A DNA stretch of 64,000 bases from Prevotella sp. (GTDB lineage Bacteria > Bacteroidota > Bacteroidia > Bacteroidales > Bacteroidaceae): assembly GCA_017428055.1 (NCBI GenBank), contig JAFRRN010000053.1, positions 1 to 64,000 of the forward strand, in the 5' to 3' direction. Every line of letters starts with the position of its first letter. Position 1 is the stretch's first letter. A program made the translations under genes and the position numbers. The notes beneath the pieces are model-generated. The model was given only the letters and a program-made list of their open reading frames with translations. It did not search any database and was not told where the DNA came from. Below are positions 26,141-37,028 of the stretch, in pieces.

Positions 26141-26518
26141 ATGGCAAAACTGTACTTGAGTAACAGAGACTCTTTACTCTGTATAGACTTGGAGTCTATT
26201 GCATTGTTGAAAGCAGAAGGGAATTATACAAGGTTGTATTACATCAATCAACATGACACTTTGCTGGCATACGGCATAGGTTATCTATTTGAGGTGTTGA
26301 GTAAGATGAGTCCTGGCAATTATCATTTCGTCAGGTTAGGCAGGAGCATCATTATCAACCACACTTACCTCCAGAAGATTGACCTCCAGAAGCAAATCCT
26401 TGAATTGGCAAACCAAGGGAAGGATAAGGTCCGTATTTCTATACCTAAGAATGTGTTGCGTAGTTACAAGACTACTGTGGAAAAGAGTGTTGTCATCAAG
26501 AAGAACGGGCACAATTAA
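26141..26518 (+). CDS. LytTR-domain DNA-binding protein
   Basis: A 125-residue stand-alone LytTR domain, normally the DNA-binding output of two-component regulators. Recognised by IALLKAEGNYTRLYYI (the conserved 'EAxGNYxxxY' block) and by NYHFVRLGRSIIINHTYLQK, equivalent to the conserved 'F.RiHRS.lVNl.yI' block. No receiver domain is present, so activity would be controlled by amount, a partner or phosphorylation by the kinase of the cluster. It is the first gene of the signalling/DGR cluster and lies 6 bp before the FHA gene. It is the best candidate for its transcriptional regulator. Confidence 0.85.
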   Translation: MAKLYLSNRDSLLCIDLESIALLKAEGNYTRLYYINQHDTLLAYGIGYLFEVLSKMSPGNYHFVRLGRSIIINHTYLQKIDLQKQILELANQGKDKVRISIPKNVLRSYKTTVEKSVVIKKNGHN

Positions 26519-26523
26519 GCAAG

Positions 26524-27168
26524 ATGGCTATGAATATAATAATAGGTCGCGGTGGACAGCAATGGTTCCCGATTAGGGGAAGGAATGTCAGCGAGGAACA
26601 TGCTGAAATAGAGATTGATGAGGAAACGGGCGTGTGGATGTTGCGGGATTTGAACTCTACGAACGGAACGTTTGTCCGAGAAGAGGAGACGGGCGAGTTC
26701 CGTCGTGTCTCTTGTGTGAGGATAAATCCTCTCACCTTTGTGTGCTTAGGCTCCGACAATGATAAGGGATGTTGCTTCTATGCACGGCAAATCGAACACC
26801 CCGGTAATTTTAATGAAGAAATACGCTACCTGAAGAAGAAAGACAGTGAGTTTGCGAAAAAAATATCCAAAGCGAAGAAGAATACCACCATTATAAGCAA
26901 TGTGAGCTGGGTGTTGACATTGCTTGTCATAGGATTCTCCCTTGTTTTTTCCGCGAATGAAGGTAACTTGAATGTTGGCAGCTTACGTTATTTGTTGGTA
27001 TTGGCAGTACCACCCTTGACGAAATTATTGACCCACGTGTTTGATACAAGGAAGAAGATAGAGGCGAGAAGGGAACTCTTTAGCCATTGCCCCAACCCCG
27101 AATGTAATTACAAGCTTCGGCACCAGGACATCGAAAACGCCGAATGCCCTCATTGCCACAAGATTTGA
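26524..27168 (+). CDS. FHA-domain membrane protein with zinc ribbon
   Basis: A 214-residue protein. Residues 5-80 are an FHA phosphothreonine-binding domain: IIIGRGGQQWFPI, then NVSEEHAEIEI (Ser, His) and LRDLNSTNGTFV, all hallmark positions. Two hydrophobic segments follow (about residues 125-145 and 152-170), and a C-terminal zinc ribbon with CPNPEC and CPHCHK. It should sit in the inner membrane with the FHA domain in the cytoplasm, where it can bind proteins phosphorylated by the cluster kinase (32267-33712). It directly follows the LytTR gene. The ligand is unknown. Confidence 0.85.
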   Translation: MAMNIIIGRGGQQWFPIRGRNVSEEHAEIEIDEETGVWMLRDLNSTNGTFVREEETGEFRRVSCVRINPLTFVCLGSDNDKGCCFYARQIEHPGNFNEEIRYLKKKDSEFAKKISKAKKNTTIISNVSWVLTLLVIGFSLVFSANEGNLNVGSLRYLLVLAVPPLTKLLTHVFDTRKKIEARRELFSHCPNPECNYKLRHQDIENAECPHCHKI

Positions 27169-27307
27169 AACAGGTCTTCTCCATACGGCATGGGGCGTAT
27201 TAGGTGGGAAATGGGGTTTCGTCATGTGTTGTGTGGGGTTTCGTCAAAGATGTTTGGCTCTTCATCCTATATGCTGGAAAAAGTTAGGAAATAGTATTGA
27301 AATGGCT

Positions 27308-27316
27308 TAATTTTGC
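27308..27316 (+). promoter_or_regulatory. Promoter -7 element of the caspase-like gene
   Basis: TAATTTTGC matches TAnnTTTGC, 44 bp before the start. The following bases (TTTTGCACTCA) recur at 28097-28107 in front of the next gene, so both may be started by similar promoters. Confidence 0.6.
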
Positions 27317-27360
27317 ACTCACAATCTCAGTAATTATCATTCATATAAACCATTTGGATT

Positions 27361-28086
27361 ATGAAAAAACTATTTCTATTAGCAATGATGCTCATCTCCC
27401 TTTTGGGAGTTCAAGCGCAGAGAACTTATGCTTTGGTGTGTGGAGTGTCACAGTATGATGACCCCACCGGGCAGTGTGTTGACCTAAACTATCCCGCCAA
27501 GGGGGTCAAGATGATGAAGAATGTCTTTCAGAAAGCAGGATTTGTTACTTCTGTCCTGACAAGTAGGCACGTTACGGAAGAGAATGTCATGGACAGGCTG
27601 AATGCTATCGTACAGATTGCCCAACCCAATGACAAGATCATCTTTCAGTTCATCGGACATGGAAGCACAGGAAAGATCCATCTCTATCAGGGGCTTCCTT
27701 TCTACTACTCGAAACTGATGTCAACACTGTCGAAAGCTCGGACAGACAAGGTGTTTTGCATCATCGATGCCTGTCAGTCGGGCAGTGCCATCGGCGTGGC
27801 GAAAGAGTTGAAAGAGGGTCACCAGGCTTTTTTGATGGCATGTAAAGCCGAGGAATACACGATGGAGACATCTGTCATAGCCAGCCCTGTCTTTACTATG
27901 TCATTGTCGAAGGGTCTGCGAGGGCGTGCCGATATTAACGGCGACCGAAAGGTAACGTTAATGGAACTGTTCCGATACGTTCATAGCGACTTGGGCAATA
28001 GGGGGAGGTCATTTGGTATACAATTACATCCCCAGTTGTTAGGAAACGGTCAATTGTTTGAGACGGTCTTAGTGGAACTCAAGTGA
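27361..28086 (+). CDS. Secreted caspase-like (C14) cysteine protease
   Basis: A 241-residue caspase-fold protein. Residues 1-20 are a signal peptide (LFLLAMMLISLLGVQAQ). The core starts RTYALVCGVSQYDDP (typical start of bacterial metacaspase-like domains), with the catalytic His in IIFQFIGHGSTGKI and the catalytic Cys in VFCIIDACQSGSA. An EF-hand-like DINGDRKVTLMELFRYV lies near the C-terminus, suggesting calcium binding. It is short and has no fused sensor domain, so regulation must come from other proteins of the cluster. The signal peptide places it in the periplasm or outside, unlike the cytoplasmic kinase and phosphatase. Role as effector is inferred. Confidence 0.86.
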   Translation: MKKLFLLAMMLISLLGVQAQRTYALVCGVSQYDDPTGQCVDLNYPAKGVKMMKNVFQKAGFVTSVLTSRHVTEENVMDRLNAIVQIAQPNDKIIFQFIGHGSTGKIHLYQGLPFYYSKLMSTLSKARTDKVFCIIDACQSGSAIGVAKELKEGHQAFLMACKAEEYTMETSVIASPVFTMSLSKGLRGRADINGDRKVTLMELFRYVHSDLGNRGRSFGIQLHPQLLGNGQLFETVLVELK

Positions 28087-28133
28087 TTATCTGTTATTTT
28101 GCACTCATAATAATCATCATAAATAATACTGTC

Positions 28134-29255
28134 ATGGAAACGAAACCTATAGATTCAAAGCAAGAAAAGAAGAGAGTGTTGTTTACACGTGGAAACAAGA
28201 AAGTGTCTTTCTCTCATGTTGGCACAACAGTGGTGGGGTCAGCTATTGGAGCTACCATCAGTAGGATAATACCTATTGATACGGCTCGTGATTCAAAGCC
28301 TACACCCGAACCGACTCCAGAGCCTAAACCAACTCCCGAGCCAACCCCTAATCCCAAACCAACCCCTGAACCAACCAATTCTCCCGAACCAACTCCAACC
28401 CCTGAACCTTCTCCAGATCCTGTTGCCAAATCGGAGCCAACTCAAGAACCGTCTGTAGAAAACCCCCATCAAGAAGAAATTGATGAAATTGCAGAGGCAT
28501 TGGTGAGGGATACGAAAATTGATGCGAGGGATGCAGCGGAGGTGGATGGCTTGTTGCATTTTACAGACCGCGTCACCATCAACTTGCCGAATGGCTTGGA
28601 AGCCGATGGCTTTGTCTTCAATCTTGGCGGAGAGGACTTGGTGTTGGCGGATTTGGATGGTGATGGTGTCTATGACAATGTGTTGGCGCATGTTGACGGT
28701 GTGCTTACCGATGTTGAGATTCCCTTGATAGGGGACGACGGGATGATTGTTACCACCTTGAATCAATTTATTGCCCAGCATCGGCTGACGGAGAGCGATG
28801 TGGAACAGATTGTGAATGCGACAGGAGGAGATGTCAACTTGACGATTACCGACATTGAGCGTCGCCAAATAGAGGCTGATGATGCCCATAATGATATTCA
28901 TGGGACTGACCGGGAAGATGGTGCCACCCCAGAGACGGACAAGGGAGATACGGCTCAATTGTCGCCAGAGGAAGAAAAGACGCTATTGGATGACATACTG
29001 GGAAGGAATGATAATCCCGTCCAAGGGCAGCCCGCCCCCCTCTCCCCAGAGGAAATAGAGATTCTGCGAAAGAGCATCCTTGGTGGTGATGTGTCGCAGA
29101 ACGACCTCACGCAGCTTTCCTCAGAGGATATTGAAACGTTGCAAAACAGCGTCTATGGAGAGAACGATGATTTGGGATTCTTCGACACCCAACAGACGGA
29201 TGATGTCTATGGTGGCGACGAGGATATCCTTTTTGACATGGATGGATTGGTGTAG
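28134..29255 (+). CDS. Pro-rich repeat protein of unknown function
   Basis: From ATG 28134 (METKPIDSKQEKKRV) the product has 373 residues. A weakly hydrophobic stretch (VGTTVVGSAIGATISRIIPI) follows the basic N-terminus and may anchor it. A Pro/Glu/Thr repeat (PTPEPTPEPKPTPEPTPNPK and on, about residues 57-105) forms an extended stalk. The rest is acidic, with a calcium-loop-like DLDGDGVYDNVLAHVDG and duplicated motifs near the end: LSPEEEKTLLDDILGRND, LSPEEIEILRKSILGGD and LSSEDIETLQNSVYGEND, a threefold repeat. No known domain recognised. Upstream ATG at 28083 overlaps the caspase gene and is less likely. The threefold acidic repeats could be docking or phosphorylation sites. Confidence 0.7.
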   Translation: METKPIDSKQEKKRVLFTRGNKKVSFSHVGTTVVGSAIGATISRIIPIDTARDSKPTPEPTPEPKPTPEPTPNPKPTPEPTNSPEPTPTPEPSPDPVAKSEPTQEPSVENPHQEEIDEIAEALVRDTKIDARDAAEVDGLLHFTDRVTINLPNGLEADGFVFNLGGEDLVLADLDGDGVYDNVLAHVDGVLTDVEIPLIGDDGMIVTTLNQFIAQHRLTESDVEQIVNATGGDVNLTITDIERRQIEADDAHNDIHGTDREDGATPETDKGDTAQLSPEEEKTLLDDILGRNDNPVQGQPAPLSPEEIEILRKSILGGDVSQNDLTQLSSEDIETLQNSVYGENDDLGFFDTQQTDDVYGGDEDILFDMDGLV

Positions 29256-29260
29256 AGGGA

Positions 29261-29842
29261 ATGAATATGGATGATGTTAAACATCTTGGCGAGGTGAAAC
29301 ATGTCAAAGACCGCATGTACTCCGTGAAGTCAACAGCTCGCGTGGGTTGCACATACACCTTGACTTGTCCTGTATGTGGGAAAACCCTGACCACTACCCC
29401 TTCTGAAGAAGGAGTGAAGCATGTCAGTTGTGACACCGACTCGTGTGGTGTCGTGATAGGTTACAAGGCAATTAGGGTTACAGGGGTTAATGTCGTGTCC
29501 CCACAATCCAAGAATGGGATGTTGGAATGGGGTGGTATCATTTCCCGAAATAGGTATGTCTTGCGCTTAGGCAAGAATGTCGTGGGTCGGAAGGACAAGG
29601 ATATGCCGAGCGATGTGGAGATAGACGATCCCGATGCCTATGTCAGCCGCCAGTCTTTTGAAATCTTTGTCTGTGTGGATGATGAAGGGGGTTACAGGTT
29701 CATCCTGTCAGTTAAGCGTTTGACCAACCCCTTGTACTTGAATGGCAACCAGAAGATTGTAGGCGAGTCGATGGACTTGAAGTTTGGCGACGTGATACAG
29801 GTGGGTAGTGTCAAGTTGAAACTTAAGGAAAGTAAAAAATGA
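29261..29842 (+). CDS. Zinc-ribbon and FHA-domain protein
   Basis: A 193-residue protein with an N-terminal zinc-ribbon-like part (TLTCPVCGKTLTTTPSEEG followed by HVSCDTDSCG) and a C-terminal FHA domain: LRLGKNVVGRKDKD, then VEIDDPDAYVSRQSFEI (Ser-Arg) and LKFGDVIQVGSVKLKL. It lacks the membrane segments of the other FHA protein at 26524-27168, so it is probably the soluble phosphothreonine reader. The domain order is reversed compared with that protein. It overlaps the phosphatase start by 4 bp (ATGA), so the two are coupled. Confidence 0.83.
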   Translation: MNMDDVKHLGEVKHVKDRMYSVKSTARVGCTYTLTCPVCGKTLTTTPSEEGVKHVSCDTDSCGVVIGYKAIRVTGVNVVSPQSKNGMLEWGGIISRNRYVLRLGKNVVGRKDKDMPSDVEIDDPDAYVSRQSFEIFVCVDDEGGYRFILSVKRLTNPLYLNGNQKIVGESMDLKFGDVIQVGSVKLKLKESKK

Positions 29843-30708
29843 AAGTAGAAATCAGGCATTCATACTCCTTCCATCAACTTGGCAAACGCCAAAACCAGGA
29901 GGACAACCGCTTTCCCGATAGAGATAGCATCGATGGCGACCAGCGTTTCTTCGTCGTGTGTGATGGAGTTGGCGGAAACAGCCATGGCGAGCTTGCCAGC
30001 GAGGTGGTCTGTGATGCCATTGGTAGGAAATTGGCGGGATATGAACTTGATGAGGTTTTTGACGATTCCGATTTAAGTGATGTTCTGAACCATGCTTACG
30101 ATGCTTTGGATGAGATTGCCAACAGGCAAAATGCTGACATGGGAACGACTCTGACTTTGGCGGTGTTTGACAGCTGTGGAGCGGTGTTGGCGCATATAGG
30201 CGACAGCAGGATTTACCAACTGCGTCCCGGTACTGGGATTATGTATCGCTCGGAGGATCATTCATTGGTCAATGAGATGGTCAAGGCTGAAATCATTACA
30301 GCGGAGACCGCTGCCCATCATCCGCAACGCCATGTGATCAGTCGGGCAATGTCCCCTTCTTCCGCAGGGCGAGGGCGCTGCGCAGCTACCGTCGCCCATG
30401 TTGCGGATATCATGGAGGGTGATGTGTTCCTGTTGTGCAGCGACGGTGTGACAGACCTCTTGACAGACACGGAACTTGCAGAACAGCTTCTTCAACGTGT
30501 TCCCTTGCGGGATCGTGTTTCCCAGTTGGCTCGTGTATGTGCCGACAGCGATGACAACAACACATGTATAGCCGTAGAGATTGGGTCTACAAGAAGTGGT
30601 GGCAAGAGCCAAACAACCATCTCCCAAGTGACTCCCGAATCGTCTCATGCCCATTCATGGTGGGAGAAAATATTGATAGCTTTAAATTTTAAAAAACAAG
30701 AACAATGA
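29839..30708 (+). CDS. PP2C-family protein phosphatase
   Basis: A 289-residue metal-dependent Ser/Thr phosphatase of the bacterial PP2C (Stp1/PrpC) type. Motifs in order: GKRQNQEDNRF, FFVVCDGVGGNSHGELAS (metal-binding Asp-Gly), MGTTLTLAVF, AHIGDSRIYQLRPG, FLLCSDGVTDLLTD and DSDDNNTCIAVEI (metal-binding Asp-Asn). About 35 extra residues at the C-terminus are not part of the core and end in a basic tail. It should reverse phosphorylation by the kinase encoded two genes downstream. Stop and next start overlap (ATGA). Confidence 0.92.
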   Translation: MKVEIRHSYSFHQLGKRQNQEDNRFPDRDSIDGDQRFFVVCDGVGGNSHGELASEVVCDAIGRKLAGYELDEVFDDSDLSDVLNHAYDALDEIANRQNADMGTTLTLAVFDSCGAVLAHIGDSRIYQLRPGTGIMYRSEDHSLVNEMVKAEIITAETAAHHPQRHVISRAMSPSSAGRGRCAATVAHVADIMEGDVFLLCSDGVTDLLTDTELAEQLLQRVPLRDRVSQLARVCADSDDNNTCIAVEIGSTRSGGKSQTTISQVTPESSHAHSWWEKILIALNFKKQEQ

Positions 30709-32264
30709 AAAAGTATATAACAATCATGATTGTGGCTTTGACCTATACCTTTGCTTTATGCAATGCCTGCATGGCTAAAGATACCGTCAAGCCGAAGACT
30801 GTCAGCAAGGTGGACTCTGTCGCTATGTTGATCCAGAGGGCAGACTCTGGCAATGCCGTAGCGCAAAACTTACTTGGCTATTGGTACTATGTAGGGAAGA
30901 ATGTGAAAAAAGATTACCAAAAGGCCGCCAATTGGTGGGCGAAAGCCGCCAAGCAGGAGAATGCCCATGGTGTGGGCAACTTGGCGATGTGTTACCAATT
31001 GGGACATGGCATCAAGGCAGACTCCGTTATGGCTATGAAGCTCTATCTGAAAGCTATCGAACTGGGTAACAAGGACATCATACCCAAGCATGAACGAGCC
31101 ATCGCCAAGGATAGGGGAAACCTCTTCAGCACCCGGCTGCTTTACCATTGTTATGAGCGTGGAATTGGCGTGAAGGCAGACCCTAAGAAAGCGGAGAAGC
31201 TCTATGAGGTACTCGCAGAAAAAGGGGATGCAGATAGGCAATTCAATCTGGCATTGGACTACATCAACAAGCAACAATATGAGAAAGCAATCCCTTGGCT
31301 CAAGAGAGCCATGCAGAAAGGGCATGTCGGTGCCACATTCTATATGGGCAAGCTGACATTCCAAGGAACGGGTGTGGCGCAAGACAAGAAGCAAGGCATC
31401 GCATGGATGGAGAAAGCCGCAGAGACGCAATTCCCTGGGGCATGTCTGGAACTTGGGAAGATTTACTTGAAAGGCGATGGCGTGGAAGCCAATGCCCCAA
31501 AAGGTGCCGAATACCTGAAACAAACGGCGGGTGTCAGCAGCGAGGCGGGTTGGCTCTTGGGGCTTTGCTACCTAAAAGGGGAGGGCGTGGCGCAGGACTA
31601 TCATTTTGCCGCGCAATGGATAGCGGAATATGTAGGGAGCCACAAAAAGGAGTTTAACCAGTTGTTTGAGGACGGCAATAAAGATGAGGCTTTCTCACAG
31701 TATCTTTGGGGATTGAAACATTATTATATATATAAGGATTACGACAAGGCGGTGGAAAGTTTCTCGAAGGTGTCGAAGGCGAAACATCAGGAGGGAACGA
31801 TGATGACAGCCCTTTGCCTCGCCCAAAAGGAATATAGGAAGCATCATGCCAAGAAAGCGTTTAAGCTGATGGAGAAAGCCGCCAAGGCTGTTCCTGCCGC
31901 CCAATACCATTTGGCAATGATGTATGGGAAGGGCGAAGGAGTGAAAAGGGATCAGCAGAAGTCCTTGGAACTCCTGCAAAAAGCCGCCGATGGGGGTGTG
32001 GCGGAAGCGCAATGCGCCCTTGGCGACAAGTATATGGCGGGCGACATCGTGGCGCGTGACTATGTGAAGGCGGCCAAACTGTACCTTGCCGCAGAATCCC
32101 AAAGACAACTTTCGGAGAAAGCTGCCAAGGGATTGGCGGAGTGTTATAAGAAACACGTGTTGGCTCTTCCTGACTTGGATAATGCCAATGCCCGTGTGGA
32201 GAAACTGAACAAGCACAAGTCGAACAGCAGATTGGCAGACTTGCTGAAAATCATGGAGAAGTGA
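30705..32264 (+). CDS. Sel1-repeat secreted protein
   Basis: A 519-residue protein with an N-terminal signal peptide (IMIVALTYTFALCNACMA) followed by about eleven Sel1-like repeats (for example GNAVAQNLLGYWYYVGKNVK, KQEN-AHGVGNLAMCYQLGHGI, GATFYMGKLTFQGTGVAQDK). Sel1 repeats form a solenoid for protein-protein contacts. With its export signal it would be a periplasmic scaffold. Its gene overlaps PP2C by 4 bp and the kinase by 4 bp, which fixes it in the operon. Which partner it binds is unknown; the caspase-like and FGE-fold proteins are the exported candidates in this cluster. Confidence 0.88.
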   Translation: MKKYITIMIVALTYTFALCNACMAKDTVKPKTVSKVDSVAMLIQRADSGNAVAQNLLGYWYYVGKNVKKDYQKAANWWAKAAKQENAHGVGNLAMCYQLGHGIKADSVMAMKLYLKAIELGNKDIIPKHERAIAKDRGNLFSTRLLYHCYERGIGVKADPKKAEKLYEVLAEKGDADRQFNLALDYINKQQYEKAIPWLKRAMQKGHVGATFYMGKLTFQGTGVAQDKKQGIAWMEKAAETQFPGACLELGKIYLKGDGVEANAPKGAEYLKQTAGVSSEAGWLLGLCYLKGEGVAQDYHFAAQWIAEYVGSHKKEFNQLFEDGNKDEAFSQYLWGLKHYYIYKDYDKAVESFSKVSKAKHQEGTMMTALCLAQKEYRKHHAKKAFKLMEKAAKAVPAAQYHLAMMYGKGEGVKRDQQKSLELLQKAADGGVAEAQCALGDKYMAGDIVARDYVKAAKLYLAAESQRQLSEKAAKGLAECYKKHVLALPDLDNANARVEKLNKHKSNSRLADLLKIMEK

Positions 32265-32266
32265 CG

Positions 32267-33712
32267 ATGAAACTGAAAGAAGGCAAATATACAATCAAAG
32301 AGAAGTTGGGGCAAGGTGGGTTTGGCATCACCTACCTTGCCACGACACTTGCGGAGGTGAAAGGCAAGGTCAATGGGAAGAATAAGAAGATGTACGCCAA
32401 GGCGCAAGTCGTCGTGAAGGAGTTTTTCATGAGCGATTATTGTAAGCACGGGGAGGACAACCAGTCGGTACTTGTCAACTCCGAGGGAAAGACTGAACTG
32501 GTGGAGGCTTATAGGAATAAGTTCAAGAAAGAAGCATGGAAGTTGGCAAAGATGGATCACCCGAACATCGTGAAGGTCACCGATGTCATAGAAGACGAGA
32601 ACAATACCAGCTATTACGTGATGAGTTTCCTCGTTGGCGGGACACTTTACAAACTTGTCAGACCAGATGACAAAACCGTCCAGCCCCTCTCGGAGGGCAA
32701 GGCCGTGAAGTATGTCAAGCAGATCGCCGACGCGCTGGGCTATATGCACAAAAGGATGATGTGCCACTTTGACGTCACACCCAATAATATCATGCTTGAC
32801 GACGAGGGCAATGCGGTGCTCATTGACTTTGGCATGGCAACGAATTACTCCAAGAATGGCAAGAAGATGAGCACGGTGCGGGTAGGTGAAACCGTAGGCT
32901 ATGCGCCGTTGGAACAGCACACCGCCACCCTCGACACTTTCTCGCCGCAAACGGACATCTATGCGCTTGGGGCGACGCTGTATTTCCTCCTGACGGGGCA
33001 TAGCCCCAACGCTGCCACTTTCGATATGGAAGCCGTACTCCCGAAAGGTCCTTGTGGCATGTCGGAGCATCTATGGACGGTCATTCAACGATGTATGCAA
33101 GCCAACCCGAAAGACAGACCCGCCAACATCGATGCCTTCATGCGGCTGATGGATGTGGATGTGAATGCTACCCGTCCCATGCCCCCTCATCTTTCCCCTT
33201 CAAGGAATAAAGTTGCCCTTTCCATCAAAAAGTTTTTGAGAGATGTCGTGTTGTGGGTCGTGGCAGGCTTGTCGATTTGGACGGTGAAACATTGTGATTC
33301 GGATAATACCCCAACACCAACACCTCCCGAGCCTGTGGTTGTGGATACTGTCATCGTTAATAATATGCAAATAAAGGATTCTATCGGAAACTTGCTATAT
33401 ACATATTCAGGGGAAACTTTGGACAGCGTACCCAATGGGAAAGGAACGGCTATATATCCAGACAACGACCCAGATGGAAGAGTGAAATTTGAGGGGTACT
33501 TCAAAGGCGGGTGTAAAAATGATGGAACCCTCACATGGAGTAATGGGAATAAGTACGATGGGGCTTTTGTGAATGACTGTTTGAAGGAAGGTAAGTTTAC
33601 CCTGAAAGACGGCAGTTATTATCAAGGAACGTATGAGGACAACAAACCCTATAATGGAAAATGGTATAACAAAGACGGAAGCTTTGACGCTGATGTCGTA
33701 AACGGTCAATAA
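32267..33712 (+). CDS. Ser/Thr protein kinase with MORN repeats
   Basis: From ATG 32267 (MKLKEGKYTIKEKLGQGGFG) the product has 481 residues; a GTG two codons earlier overlaps the Sel1 stop and is also possible. Kinase domain, residues 1-290: Gly loop LGQGGFGITYLA, Lys in VVVKEFFM, catalytic loop HFDVTPNNIML and VLIDFGMA (DFG). The Arg of the usual HRD motif is Phe, making this a non-RD kinase. A long insert precedes the Lys. One membrane segment follows (about residues 325-345, VVLWVVAGLSIWTV), and the outer part has MORN repeats (GKGTAIYPDNDP, FEGYFKGGCKNDGTLTW, NGNKYDGAFVND). The kinase faces the cytoplasm and the MORN part the periplasm. Probably signals from outside to FHA readers. Confidence 0.88.
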   Translation: MKLKEGKYTIKEKLGQGGFGITYLATTLAEVKGKVNGKNKKMYAKAQVVVKEFFMSDYCKHGEDNQSVLVNSEGKTELVEAYRNKFKKEAWKLAKMDHPNIVKVTDVIEDENNTSYYVMSFLVGGTLYKLVRPDDKTVQPLSEGKAVKYVKQIADALGYMHKRMMCHFDVTPNNIMLDDEGNAVLIDFGMATNYSKNGKKMSTVRVGETVGYAPLEQHTATLDTFSPQTDIYALGATLYFLLTGHSPNAATFDMEAVLPKGPCGMSEHLWTVIQRCMQANPKDRPANIDAFMRLMDVDVNATRPMPPHLSPSRNKVALSIKKFLRDVVLWVVAGLSIWTVKHCDSDNTPTPTPPEPVVVDTVIVNNMQIKDSIGNLLYTYSGETLDSVPNGKGTAIYPDNDPDGRVKFEGYFKGGCKNDGTLTWSNGNKYDGAFVNDCLKEGKFTLKDGSYYQGTYEDNKPYNGKWYNKDGSFDADVVNGQ

Positions 33713-33713
33713 A

Positions 33714-34937
33714 ATGAAACAATTATTTTACATTCTAATGATCTTTGGGCTTGTAATGGGAACGACAGCCACAAATGCACAACCAGGCGACATTAAAAAG
33801 AAAGAGAAAAAACCTATCCCTCCAAAGGGCTATAACGTTACTTTTGAGTGTAATGCATCATCTGCAAACTTGACTGTTGACGGAAAGAGAAAAGGCTCTG
33901 CCAACGGCACTTATTACCTTACGACTGGCAAGCATAGTGTCAAATTGAATGCATTTGGGTACGTTAGCTTATCGAAGACCATCACTGTCGATTCAAGTCA
34001 CAAATATTATTACCTTTACATGGATCGTGTGGAGAAAGATGGCTATGATGTGTATTTTTCCTGCAATGTGCCATCTGCCTTGATGAGTATTGACGGGGTG
34101 GCGAGCGGGACGGCCTCTGGCTCTCGTTTCTTGAAAAAAGGGTCGCATAGCATTCAACTGACCGCCAACGGATATGAAACCCTAACACGCTCTATAGTCG
34201 TCAATTCTGAGAACAGCCGATATTCATTCACCATGGAGAAAAGGCAAGAGTCGCCCCAACAAGCAATATTGAAGAATCTTGTTAGCAACATGGTCTATGT
34301 GGAAGGCGGCACTTTCATGATGGGTGCCACCAAAGAGCAGGGTAAAGATGCTTATGATGATGAGAAACCCTACCATCAAGTAACCCTTTCCTCTTTCTCT
34401 ATAGGGAAGTTTGAGGTGACTCAAGAAGAATGGGAAGCCGTAATGGGAAGTAATCCCTCAAAATATAAAGGGGCAAAGCTACCCGTGGAATGTGTTAGTT
34501 GGGAGGATTGTCAGACATTTATTGAAAAGTTGAATGCTTTGACGGGTAAAAGTTTTCGTCTGCCTACGGAGGCGGAGTGGGAATATGCCGCACGTGGTGG
34601 TAATCGTAGCCGTGGCTACAAGTATGCCAGTGCCGGTGACAATACACTTGGCAATGTGGCATGGTATAATGCAAACTCAGGAGGTAAGACGCATGAGGTT
34701 GGAAAGAAACAGCCCAATGAACTTGGCTTGTATGATATGTCAGGAAATGTGTGGGAATGGTGCCATGACAAGTATGGAAAGTACTCTTCATTAGCCCAGA
34801 CGAATTCCACGGGCTCCGGCCGCGTGCTCCGTGGCGGCAGCTGGGGCAGCGACGCGGGGCGCTGCCGTGTGTCGTATCGGCGCGGCAGCAGTCCGTCGTG
34901 CCGCAACAACTACCTCGGCTTGCGCCTTGCCCTATAG
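33714..34937 (+). CDS. PEGA/FGE-fold secreted DGR target protein
   Basis: A 407-residue protein with signal peptide (LFYILMIFGLVMGTTATNAQ), two PEGA-like domains (about residues 42-105 and 110-175, e.g. SSANLTVDGKRKGSANGTYY and SALMSIDGVASGTASGSRF) and a C-terminal FGE/SUMF1 (C-type-lectin-like) domain: YVEGGTFMMGA, FSIGKFEVTQEEWEAVMGSN, FRLPTEAEWEYAARGG and SGNVWEWCHDKY. Its last 41 codons are the variable repeat (34811-34937) of a diversity-generating retroelement. This fold is the usual display scaffold for DGR-varied residues. It should be an exported, hypervariable binding protein, presumably the recognition component of the cluster. It starts 1 bp after the kinase stop. Confidence 0.92.
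   Translation: MKQLFYILMIFGLVMGTTATNAQPGDIKKKEKKPIPPKGYNVTFECNASSANLTVDGKRKGSANGTYYLTTGKHSVKLNAFGYVSLSKTITVDSSHKYYYLYMDRVEKDGYDVYFSCNVPSALMSIDGVASGTASGSRFLKKGSHSIQLTANGYETLTRSIVVNSENSRYSFTMEKRQESPQQAILKNLVSNMVYVEGGTFMMGATKEQGKDAYDDEKPYHQVTLSSFSIGKFEVTQEEWEAVMGSNPSKYKGAKLPVECVSWEDCQTFIEKLNALTGKSFRLPTEAEWEYAARGGNRSRGYKYASAGDNTLGNVAWYNANSGGKTHEVGKKQPNELGLYDMSGNVWEWCHDKYGKYSSLAQTNSTGSGRVLRGGSWGSDAGRCRVSYRRGSSPSCRNNYLGLRLAL
34811..34937 (+). repeat. DGR variable repeat (VR)
   Basis: 127 bp aligned without gaps to the TR at 36504-36630. There are 20 differences, all at positions where the TR has A; no other base differs. Thirteen codons change, for example AAC to GGC, CTC, CGC, TGC and TAC. The 3' part from 34910 to 34937 is identical and serves as the initiation of mutagenic homology. 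Confidence 0.97.
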
Positions 34938-34970
34938 TTCATTCCCTGCAAGAGAGAGGAAAGAGGAAAA

Positions 34971-35041
34971 AGTCCTCATGCCGTGCTTTGCGTAAAAGGC
35001 GGCATCAAGCCGCCAAAAAAGCAAAGCACGGCATGAGGACT
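34971..35041. repeat. Perfect 21-bp inverted repeat downstream of VR
   Basis: Arms at 34971-34991 and 35021-35041 (starting AGTCCTCATGCC and ending GGCATGAGGACT) are perfect complements over 21 bp; one further A-T pair extends them. A second hairpin, GGCGGC/GCCGCC (34998-35003, 35009-35014), lies inside. No T-run follows, so a plain terminator is less likely. A hairpin or cruciform downstream of the VR is a known part of DGR target recognition in phage BPP-1. Confidence 0.9.
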
Positions 35042-35065
35042 TCACGAGACATATAAAAGACAGAC

Positions 35066-35560
35066 ATGCAAATTAAGTTGTATACCTTGCCCGTATTTGG
35101 GTCGGAAGGGATAGAGGAGGAGATGAACCGCTTCCTCCGTGGGCATCGCATCTTGCAGGTGGAGCGTCATTTCTGTCCTGATAGCGGAGGCTATTGGGCT
35201 ATCCTCATCGAATATGTCGATGGCGACCCTATAGCCGAGGCAACTCCTGCCAACCGCAGGGACCGTAAGGACTTTACCGAGGGACTGACGGAAGAGGAGA
35301 AGGTGCGCTTTGAGCGATACAAGGCCATCCGCAAGGAACTGGCCAACCGAAACTCCATGCCCGCCTATCTCATCTTCACCAACGAGGAATTGGCATTGTT
35401 GGCGAAGATGCCCGAGCTACGGGAAGACAACACCCGCCAAGTGAAGGGCATCGCCCCACAGCGGTTGCGCGATTATGTGAGATACTTTTATGTTGAGACA
35501 GATGGTGAAACGGGTGGGCAACCTCATGCCGAGGATAGCGAGTTTGGAAAACCTGCATGA
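35066..35560 (+). CDS. HRDC-domain DGR accessory protein
   Basis: A 164-residue protein encoded between the target gene and the reverse transcriptase. Residues about 75-140 form an HRDC domain: YKAIRKELANRNSMPAYLIF, then NEELALLAKMPE and IAPQRLRDYVRYF, as in the C-terminal nucleic-acid-binding domain of RecQ. Residues 1-60 resemble the N-terminal part found in other DGR-associated HRDC proteins (MQIKLYTLPVFGS, EEEMNRFLRGHRI). HRDC accessory genes replace avd in some DGRs. It probably helps the RT with its RNA template. Its 3' end overlaps the RT frame by up to 71 bp. Confidence 0.86.
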   Translation: MQIKLYTLPVFGSEGIEEEMNRFLRGHRILQVERHFCPDSGGYWAILIEYVDGDPIAEATPANRRDRKDFTEGLTEEEKVRFERYKAIRKELANRNSMPAYLIFTNEELALLAKMPELREDNTRQVKGIAPQRLRDYVRYFYVETDGETGGQPHAEDSEFGKPA

Positions 35561-36803
35561 GGCATTCCTACGGGCGGCACGTGGGAAGTGCGGAAAACGG
35601 GAGGTGAAAGACTTCCGCTGCCATCTGGAGGAGAATCTCCAACGGATGGGCAGGGAGTTGCTTGAAGGCAATTACCGATTTGGCAGTTATCACTTCTTCA
35701 CCATCCACGACCCGAAGGAGCGGACCATCTGCGCGGCGACATTCAAGGACAGGGTGGCGTTTCATGCGATGATGCGCATTTGCCATCCTGTGTTTGACAA
35801 CTACCAAATTAGTGACAGTTACGCCAGCAGGATAGGGAAGGGAACGTATAAGGCGTTGGAACGGGCGCAGCAGTTATGCCGCCGCTATGCTTGGTTTGCC
35901 AAGATGGATATGTGTAAATACTTTGACTCGATAGACCATGAGGTGATGCTCCGCCAGTTGGGTCGGCTGTTCAAAGACCCACAGTTGCTCATCTACTTCC
36001 GTGACCTCCTCGATGGCTATGAGGTGACACGGGGGAAGGGCTTGCCCATCGGCAACCTGACCAGCCAGTATTTCGCCAACCATTACCTGTCAGTGGCAGA
36101 CCATTATATGAAACAGGAGGTGGGAGTGCCTGGCTTGGTGAGGTATATGGATGACATTCTGCTATTCAGCAATGACAGGAAAGAGTTAAGGGGATATGTC
36201 TCTCGGTTAAAGGAATATGTGGAGAAAGAACTCCGTCTGACCATCCACGATCCGGTCATCAACCGTACATGCCACGGCATTCCTTTCTTGGGATATGTGG
36301 TGTATGGCAAGGAGTTGCGGTTAAACCAGCGCAGCCGAAAGCGTTTCCGCCAACGGATGGGGGATTTGGAGAAAGACTTGGCAATGGGGATGATAAGTGA
36401 TAAGGAATATGCCATGCGGGCATCGTGCCTGTTCGCCTTCATCGACAAGGCGGAGGCTGCCGATTTCCGCTACCGTGTATTCAACCAAGCAATGCGTCCG
36501 CAGGGGCTCCAACCGCGTGAACCGTGGCGGCAGCTGGAACAACAACGCGAGGAACTGCCGTGTGTCGAATCGGAACAACAACAGTCCGTCGAACCGCAAC
36601 AACAACCTCGGCTTGCGCCTTGCCCTATAGCTCAGCCTTGCCCGGAAAGGTTATTCCATAGCAGGGAAGAACAGGACGCATCTGCTGCCCATATCGACAC
36701 GGTCGGTATGGCGAATAAGAAGAATGAAATGGTGTATGCCTTAGTAGCTTCGGGCGAAAGGGCTGCACCACTTTGTAATGGAATCAAAGTGGGATGTCTG
36801 TAG
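35502..36803 (+). CDS. Diversity-generating retroelement reverse transcriptase
   Basis: From ATG 35502 (MVKRVGNLMPRIASLENL) the product has 433 residues; ATGs at 35490 and 35526 are alternatives. Catalytic features: WFAKMDMCKYFDSIDH (first Asp), the DGR-specific GLPIGNLTSQYFAN (in place of the QG motif of other RTs) and YMDDILLFSN (YxDD). The thumb region PFLGYVVYGKELRLNQRSRK follows. The enzyme copies TR RNA with random misincorporation at adenines. Beyond residue about 330 the frame runs through the TR and reads it as a Gln/Pro/Glu-rich tail (EQQQSVEPQQQP), then continues 170 bp beyond it. The coding capacity of the tail may be incidental. The start overlaps the HRDC gene. Confidence 0.95.
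   Translation: MVKRVGNLMPRIASLENLHEAFLRAARGKCGKREVKDFRCHLEENLQRMGRELLEGNYRFGSYHFFTIHDPKERTICAATFKDRVAFHAMMRICHPVFDNYQISDSYASRIGKGTYKALERAQQLCRRYAWFAKMDMCKYFDSIDHEVMLRQLGRLFKDPQLLIYFRDLLDGYEVTRGKGLPIGNLTSQYFANHYLSVADHYMKQEVGVPGLVRYMDDILLFSNDRKELRGYVSRLKEYVEKELRLTIHDPVINRTCHGIPFLGYVVYGKELRLNQRSRKRFRQRMGDLEKDLAMGMISDKEYAMRASCLFAFIDKAEAADFRYRVFNQAMRPQGLQPREPWRQLEQQREELPCVESEQQQSVEPQQQPRLAPCPIAQPCPERLFHSREEQDASAAHIDTVGMANKKNEMVYALVASGERAAPLCNGIKVGCL
36504..36630 (+). repeat. DGR template repeat (TR)
   Basis: 127 bp homologous to the VR at 34811-34937, with AAC-rich codons in the VR reading frame (GSNRVNRGGSWNNNARNCRV and on, ending with the same stop). The 14 AAC/AAT codons are exactly the sites where randomised adenines give most amino-acid changes. 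It lies inside the 3' coding part of the RT gene in a different frame. Confidence 0.97.
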
Positions 36804-36885: not shown

Positions 36886-36908
36886 ACCCGACTTACAGAC
36901 TGTAAGTT

Positions 36909-36985
36909 AAGGGGTGTCCGTCTATTGGCGGGCTGAGATTAGACCCTCTGACCTGATCGGGATCATGCCCGCGTAGGAATTTCTT
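36909..36985 (+). promoter_or_regulatory. TPP riboswitch (THI box)
   Basis: The conserved aptamer is clear: GGGGTGTCC near the start, GGCTGAGA at 36931-36938, ACCCTCTGACCTGATC ending at 36958, and ATGCCCGCGTAGGAA at 36965-36979. It precedes the TonB receptor gene by about 45 bp and should shut off the operon when thiamin pyrophosphate is abundant. A small hairpin (CTTACAGACTGTAAG, 36891-36905) lies at the transcript start. Confidence 0.95.
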
Positions 36986-37028
36986 TCTCTCCCCCTTATT
37001 GTATATTATATAAATAAGGTAAAAAATC

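Follow-up and report, generated by a model that had tools for sequence, protein, structure and literature searches.

A diversity-generating retroelement at the end of a kinase, FHA and caspase operon in Prevotella sp., and a proposed sensor role for its target

Diversity-generating retroelements (DGRs) vary phage tips and surface proteins, and what a bacterium does with a hypervariable receptor is the question raised by a locus in Prevotella sp. We analysed positions 1 to 64,000 of contig JAFRRN010000053.1 (assembly GCA_017428055.1; this whole stretch is hereafter the window), where positions 26141-36803 hold 11 open reading frames (ORFs), all in one orientation, as a sequence-only reading of the same DNA had stated with a count of ten genes. 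Their products are, in order, LytTR, FHA, caspase-like C14, Pro-rich/acidic, FHA, PP2C, Sel1, Ser/Thr kinase, PEGA-PEGA-FGE, HRDC and reverse transcriptase (RT). Our best explanation, which we consider probable as a whole, is that the DGR diversifies a ligand sensor at the operon end that feeds a phosphothreonine relay, and that kinases of this type have more than once gained sensors written by a DGR within the family. The conserved operon would then supply a likely downstream path for a varied domain (a kinase, a phosphatase, two phosphothreonine readers, a transcription factor and a protease) in a host-associated family, and the question becomes one that phosphoproteomics, or the selection of variants on ligands, could address.

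The retroelement and its target protein

The template repeat (TR; 36504..36630, + strand) lies within the 3′ end of the RT ORF (35490..36803, +), and the variable repeat (VR; 34811..34937, +) closes the gene of the PEGA-PEGA-FGE protein (33714..34937, +). Over 127 bp the two repeats differ at 20 positions, all 20 at adenines of TR, which holds 33 of them (probability by chance of roughly 6e-15), and the mismatches fall 11 times at codon position 1, nine times at position 2 and never at position 3. The RT adjoins both repeats and was identified by an RVT_1 match (2.6e-16) and its placement in a tree; its ORF includes LPIGNLTSQ and YMDD, which we take to be DGR-RT motifs. The earlier claim of a full DGR that varies an FGE-fold protein is thereby borne out. 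This target is matched by PF08308 (8.7e-16) and PF03781 (FGE-sulfatase, 1.7e-52), is probably exported, judging by its N-terminus, and has TvpA (2y3c) as its closest solved structure (6.1e-41). Between target and RT, and overlapping the latter, lies the gene of an HRDC-domain DGR accessory protein (35066..35560, +; PF00570 4.6e-07); with an FGE target, an HRDC gene and an RT in this arrangement, the window DGR is, by its sequence, a TvpA-like cassette. Retrohoming would replace VR by a copy of TR into which the RT would introduce errors at adenines. A search of the same genome with TR returned only TR itself and the cis VR above background, with no remote target, and a single RT was found there.

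In phage DGRs, the target hairpins lie 3′ of VR and have stems of 7-10 bp and loops of 4 nt (PMC3240598; here and below, statements about published work refer to the available portions of the cited articles). An inverted repeat occupies the same post-VR site in the window (34970..35042, +; 32 bp after VR), a candidate target-recognition hairpin whose perfect 22-bp stem and 29-nt loop are both longer. Elsewhere (G-, L- and C-numbers are our labels for genomes, loci and contigs), stems clearly exceeded 20 shuffles after seven of ten other DGR VRs, a comparison that covered those ten only and to which L128, L129 and L130 were the exceptions, and the same test after 10 control kinase genes gave hardly any signal.

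Kinase sensors with the same pattern of variation

The target gene begins 1 bp past the stop of a Hanks-type kinase gene (32261..33712, +; PF00069 6.1e-33), and in other genomes the two are joined. We found 28 distinct kinase-FGE fusions (a list of 29 has one gene twice), of which 19 have a predicted transmembrane (TM) segment between the two domains; FGE domains are also encoded near kinases, where unlabelled ORFs may intervene. Among 79 kinases of a hold-out set, made up of 60 further kinase loci picked by kinase score before their sensors were viewed, Pfam (E ≤ 0.001) matched FGE in 21, Lcl_C in 12, PEGA in seven, Sel1 in six, WG in three, TCAD9 in three and MORN in two.

A case that arose in this hold-out set connects such sensors to a DGR. 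The L241 kinase of genome G300 combines a TM segment with a C-terminal Lcl_C-like domain (2.4e-07, below the curated cut-off), and its final 185 coding bases serve as VR for the adjoining RT, with 20 of 20 differences at adenines. A second G300 kinase, L240, lies on another contig and differs from the same TR at 18 positions within the first 148 bp, all 18 at adenines; over all aligned bases there are 24 differences, 20 of them at adenines, and the four others follow a 3-base gap. In L241 and L240, kinase and varied lectin-like domain thus form one polypeptide, unlike in the window, where the genes are 1 bp apart. The G300 RT is far more distant by score (118 bits) and is not among the RTs of our tree, and a clear post-VR hairpin was not seen at L240. 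These TR and VR data indicate that a DGR with another sensor fold and a distant RT writes the sensors of these kinases directly. The two loci (L241:4432-8935 and L240:2581-4266) show a second DGR type, with TR at the N-terminal end of the RT and targets in cis and in trans.

Sensors at other loci carry a DGR-like codon footprint. We examined the 15 columns that correspond to adenine-bearing TR codons (14 Asn and one Arg). In a first set of 16 FGE domains without a local DGR, entropy reached 2.96 bits at these columns compared to 1.15 in other VR columns and 1.16 in the rest of the domain, and at the 14 Asn columns the third base was C or T (NNY) in 191 of 221 codons, compared to 54% outside. 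Because NNY goes with Tyr, Ser, Gly and Asp, we repeated the test on fourfold codons alone, where the bias held (45:11 compared to 602:510, p=6e-5). The hold-out loci gave the same picture for 33 FGE domains (21 fused), with an entropy of 3.13 bits at TR-Asn columns (1.07 in other VR columns, 1.25 in the rest), NNY in 384 of 433 codons (57% outside) and fourfold codons at 102:19 compared to 1435:961 (p=1e-8; fusions alone 60:12, p=2e-5). At least 13 of 14 columns are NNY in 16 of these 33 domains, and others are weak (8/13, 9/13, 10/14) or shortened by the alignment. Lcl_C-like domains behave likewise (n=28, a set that includes L240 and some proteins without a kinase), at 2.98 bits compared to 1.42 and 1.59 and with fourfold codons at 77:27 compared to 712:467 (p=4e-3).

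The last 100 bases of the TR of G316, compared with a kinase-FGE fusion of the congeneric G310, differ at 12 of 29 adenine sites and at three of 71 others (p=1e-5); more distant pairs of TR and sensor show the same contrast, which partly repeats the column finding. All these p-values take each codon or base to be independent and combine related genes. We dropped a subset of seven 'clean' FGE genes, which had been selected by the tested property itself, and a repeat in L080 that had at first looked like a TR/VR pair proved to be an ordinary one. Where an assembly misses the RT, the codon footprint offers a way to spot past or trans targets of DGRs.

The proposed relay and its rivals

The kinase-FGE fusions, the sensor VR of G300 and the recurring adjacency described below make the varied FGE protein probably an input to the kinase. 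A variant would bind its ligand outside the inner membrane and act on the membrane kinase of the preceding gene, 1 bp away; kinase and PP2C would set threonine phosphorylation, the two FHA proteins would read the marks and LytTR would change transcription, as the families suggest. The caspase, probably exported, might process envelope or secreted proteins as output or feedback, which is the weakest step. The sequence-only reading had the varied protein detect an outside ligand and the kinase relay it, and this survives as a probable input to the relay, with a coupling that is optional. We see it as an even call whether Bacteroidaceae more broadly hold membrane receptor kinases whose FGE or Lcl_C-like sensors are written by DGRs, in cis and in trans, and feed one LytTR/FHA/PP2C/caspase module; if so, these would be a counterpart, in bacterial gut commensals, of variable immune-type receptors, and the window would be the form with its own DGR.

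An unlikely alternative, if the best placed of three, is an anti-phage or cell-death conflict system in which the varied FGE protein would detect an invader and the caspase would kill or arrest the cell. Caspase, kinase and DGR-varied FGE occur together in published putative conflict systems, described with NTPases in several groups (PMC7159879, PMC8195603, PMC10907252). The window caspase resembles the NCBIfam EACC1-associated type (2.6e-15; 56.5 bits, under the cut-off of 140) and a PADLOC caspase (6.4e-12), the kinase resembles PADLOC mad6 (1.4e-49) and PD-T4-6, and TCAD9, 'ternary complex associated domain 9', is found in three of the 79 hold-out kinases (best 1.8e-04). However, the PADLOC models, applied singly and not as system rules to window proteins other than Sel1, match different systems at the domain level only (with kinase, caspase, PP2C, HRDC and RT), and no gene set of one named system appears. 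No MoxR, vWA or STAND NTPase domain was detected in the 10 window proteins scanned with Pfam, which may lack EAD models (the eleventh, the RT, was identified by its separate RVT_1 match). By hydropathy, the window caspase and the 20 caspase-class ORFs listed from loci outside the hold-out set begin with a hydrophobic, signal-like stretch (one of these ORFs is without the GHG and another without the DAC motif), so that they would probably not meet cytoplasmic targets, and the FGE protein looks exported too. The claim of a secreted caspase thus agrees with predicted export, and that of an executioner in a conflict system was not upheld. A defence role is possible and not favoured; with caspase and sensor both likely to be exported, sensing of ligands on the surface or outside (glycans of the host, neighbours, phage at the surface) is a better fit than intracellular suicide.

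The sequence-only reading had proposed a check of genomes for co-occurrence of these families around DGR RTs, and here the proposed coupling finds support: DGRs adjoin module-type kinases in three genomes besides the window (G316, G198 and G300). Within the clade of the window RT, such a kinase lies at most 3 kb from the RT in three of nine loci of the family. One is the window itself. In G316 (L129), a reverse-oriented DGR lies between PP2C-kinase and FHA-caspase, with 11 of 12 TR/VR differences at adenines, and in G198 (L126) the order is FGE-HRDC-RT-TR and then the kinase, with 16 of 16 at adenines. With the window left out, two of eight has a probability of about 2e-4 by position, given the per-genome kinase counts among the matches listed and with a 3-kb limit that was fixed after the distances were known. 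Neighbours could be missed at L124, L125 and L127, among the other six loci, because these contigs are 5 to 8 kb long. The G316 RT falls outside a supported seven-row clade that contains the RTs of the window and G198, and the label count is compatible with one origin. For the remaining 11 RT places, the 10 genomes concerned gave no kinase match at E ≤ 1e-25. At a weaker RT locus outside this list, with TR and VR (L071:9370-19625, G033), two kinases that match below the same cut-off (3e-11 and 6e-16) lie about 3 and 8 kb away on the opposite strand.

Several observations weigh against a sensor that belongs to this relay, the first being that the module and the DGR mostly occur apart. Using profiles built from the first locus set for five core classes (LytTR, FHA, caspase, PP2C and kinase), we found at least four classes in 26 of 86 loci with the window excluded (16 of the 26 in the first set and 10 among the 60 hold-out loci), and 25 of these 26 have no DGR. 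The usual order is LytTR-FHA-caspase-FHA-PP2C-(Sel1)-kinase. The 86 loci are not a random sample, as they were fetched by likeness to the kinase, caspase or RT, and many of those outside the 26 are short contigs or lone kinases. The Prevotella genome itself has two more module copies without an RT, on contigs C68 (L063) and C21 (L062), and the congeneric G377 has one without a DGR (L199). Kinase matches occur in 60 of 399 family genomes (E ≤ 1e-25) and caspase matches in 17 of 151 (E ≤ 1e-12); a related-locus search queried with the window kinase returned one locus. In the closest own-genome copy (L063:4300-8300), WG-like (by eye) and Sel1-like repeat proteins take the place of FGE.

Conversely, related RTs are found across the order in 18 further genomes of 393 (E ≤ 1e-50) and form a clade (support 100/99) separate from eight other family RTs, which we named phage-like from their surroundings alone. 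An HRDC gene is present in 24 of the 28 loci fetched for related RTs in family and order, and an FGE gene in most, and most of these DGRs sit away from the module, many on short contigs. The nearest RT (64%, G793) has a lipoprotein-like FGE protein as its target, and the 34 kb read around that DGR hold no module gene. At E ≤ 1e-60, a DGR RT was found in two of 110 genomes of the window's genus (the window's and G793), one of 45 in the genus of G316 and one of 58 in that of G198, each the one already known, and the pair of DGR and module was not met again in these close relatives. In G793 the target FGE is preceded by two proteins, one with two Lcl_C-like domains (L201:10329-15697), and a surface complex is possible there. 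At the order level, L162:2000-16500 has a same-clade DGR beside a caspase, LPP20-like, PEGA and BACON proteins and two FGE proteins in another arrangement, and L169 has similar LPP20 and PEGA neighbours. A tree made to place the window FGE gave no supported position.

The sequence-only reading had counted independent occurrence of the DGR and the kinase/FHA/caspase genes against itself. For the most part they do occur independently, yet adjacency recurs, and the coupling is thus optional. The same separateness is what one would expect of chance neighbours, with a mobile TvpA-like DGR that landed with its own FGE target 3′ of an unrelated signalling operon and shares only a transcript, as would be the 128 bp with a large inverted repeat between the FGE and HRDC genes. 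We judge this slightly less likely still than a conflict system, since a single base pair separates the kinase stop from the FGE start, FGE genes or kinase-FGE fusions are also present at many module or kinase loci that have no DGR, kinase and DGR adjoin in three other genomes and the G300 DGR writes its kinase's own sensor.

The remaining difficulties concern the kinase and the reach of the footprint. The window encodes its varied protein and its kinase as two polypeptides, so that neighbourhood alone links them. The catalytic loop of the kinase reads HFDVTPNN, with Thr for the Lys of the HxDxKxxN form that is present in 79 of 79 hold-out relatives; the window kinase may therefore be weak or inactive, in which case a different kinase may drive the relay. 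Nine of the 28 distinct fusions (10 of the 29 listed) have no TM segment between kinase and FGE, so that some sensors may face the cytoplasm. A post-stop stem stands clearly above shuffles in two of the 12 fusions tested (L073 and L262); many of the variants could therefore be frozen. For most genomes with footprinted sensors, the searches made gave no RT: the search of 151 genomes at 1e-10 found none in G053, G073, G086, G102 and G143, and located those of G125 and G044 on contigs other than their kinases'. Such absence is weak evidence because the search of 399 genomes (E ≤ 1e-35) missed the G300 DGR and many assemblies are incomplete. That the footprint reflects ordinary selection for varied binding loops rich in Tyr, Ser, Gly and Asp, with no DGR, would suit these few RTs and stems and the FGE genes with a weak footprint or none (for example, L139_2610 with 7/12 and L225 with 8/13), but it is the least probable alternative, as the bias persists in fourfold codons, where the encoded amino acid leaves the third base free, and as L240, L241 and L257 match a TR closely with differences at adenines.

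Parts of the operon and comparison with known systems

Pfam recovered the domains that had been claimed for the operon (LytTR, two FHA, PP2C, kinase, Sel1, caspase-like and FGE). It opens with a stand-alone LytTR DNA-binding protein of 125 aa (26141..26518, +; PF04397 6.6e-06, with no other domain found), whose gene is also the first of the module in most LytTR-bearing relatives. The first FHA protein (26524..27168, +; PF00498 6.8e-12) has one TM segment (123-141 by hydropathy) and a Cys-rich, zinc-ribbon-like C-terminal end, and the second (29261..29842, +; PF00498 5.9e-06) has its Cys-rich motif at the N-terminal side. Between them are encoded the caspase-like protease (27361..28086, +; Peptidase_C14, PF00656 1.7e-12), with a hydrophobic N-terminus and both catalytic motifs of C14 (GHG for His and DACQSG for Cys), and a Pro-rich/acidic protein (28083..29255, +) for which Pfam gave no specific family. 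The true start of the latter, judged on its sequence, is probably the ATG at 28134, 51 bp inside the GTG-started ORF, and unlabelled proteins occupy its place in L063 and L082. It includes a short Asp-rich segment, LADLDGDGVYDN, that resembles a calcium-binding motif, and L063 has a similar one.

A PP2C phosphatase of the Stp1/IreP-like kind follows (29839..30708, +; PF13672 (PP2C_2) 9.5e-17; NF033484 3.5e-44, under the cut-off), and then a Sel1-repeat protein, predicted to be exported or anchored (30705..32264, +; PF08238 2.7e-52; hydrophobic 5-23). Many 4-bp overlaps had been noted, and three are certain (FHA2/PP2C, PP2C/Sel1 and Sel1/kinase); a fourth, caspase/Pro-rich, holds only with the less likely GTG start. 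The kinase is non-RD (HFD), as had been stated, and so are its relatives. Its designation as a MORN kinase fared less well: there is no Pfam MORN match in it, and the MORN-like label on its C-terminal part comes solely from resemblance to the L129 kinase, itself matched at 3.8e-04, below the cut-off. Its TM-like stretch is weak, with a top hydropathy of 1.36 compared to the threshold of 1.7 for TM calls.

Directly after the DGR, a TPP riboswitch (RF00059, 63.1 bits; 36900-36996) precedes genes for a TonB receptor and a PnuC-like protein, and this is an ordinary thiamine uptake locus. In a search for an empty site, six congeneric stretches included sequence upstream of the thiamine TonB receptor, and in none of them did the window's upstream genes lie beside it.

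According to Roux et al. (PMC8144416), the majority of cellular DGR targets seem to be anchored in the membrane and to bind on its outer side, a pattern that fits the proposed sensor. The operon shares with PknB/Stk1-Stp1 signalling a Hanks kinase, PP2C and FHA together (NCBIfam matches below cut-off), but no PASTA is reported here, and the C-termini of the hold-out kinases match FGE, Lcl_C, PEGA, Sel1, WG or MORN. With the NTPase or ternary DGR conflict systems, as far as the available portions describe them, it has in common a DGR-varied FGE and the caspase, kinase and FHA themes; it differs in having no detected MoxR-vWA or STAND NTPase and in an FGE protein and a caspase that look exported. 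The cited portions of the DGR kinase and conflict literature, from one open library and thus not implying absence from print, gave no description of the window module.

The closest DGR is that of TvpA in Treponema denticola, where HRDC accessory proteins have been described (PMC4891356). Both have an FGE/C-type-lectin target, an HRDC accessory gene overlapping the RT gene and adenine-directed variation. The accessory gene of the TvpA DGR lies between TR and RT, whereas the window TR falls within the RT ORF, at its 3′ end, and the window target has a pair of PEGA domains and comes after a kinase/FHA/caspase operon. In cyanobacteria, DGRs vary Ser/Thr kinase-CLec proteins and orthocaspases, remote targets included (PMC7517822), and the likeness extends to varied lectin-like domains, caspase relatives and targets in cis and in trans, as in G300. 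The phylum is another one, and here the kinase belongs to a LytTR/two-FHA/PP2C operon with a separate caspase and, in the window, the varied domain is a protein of its own.

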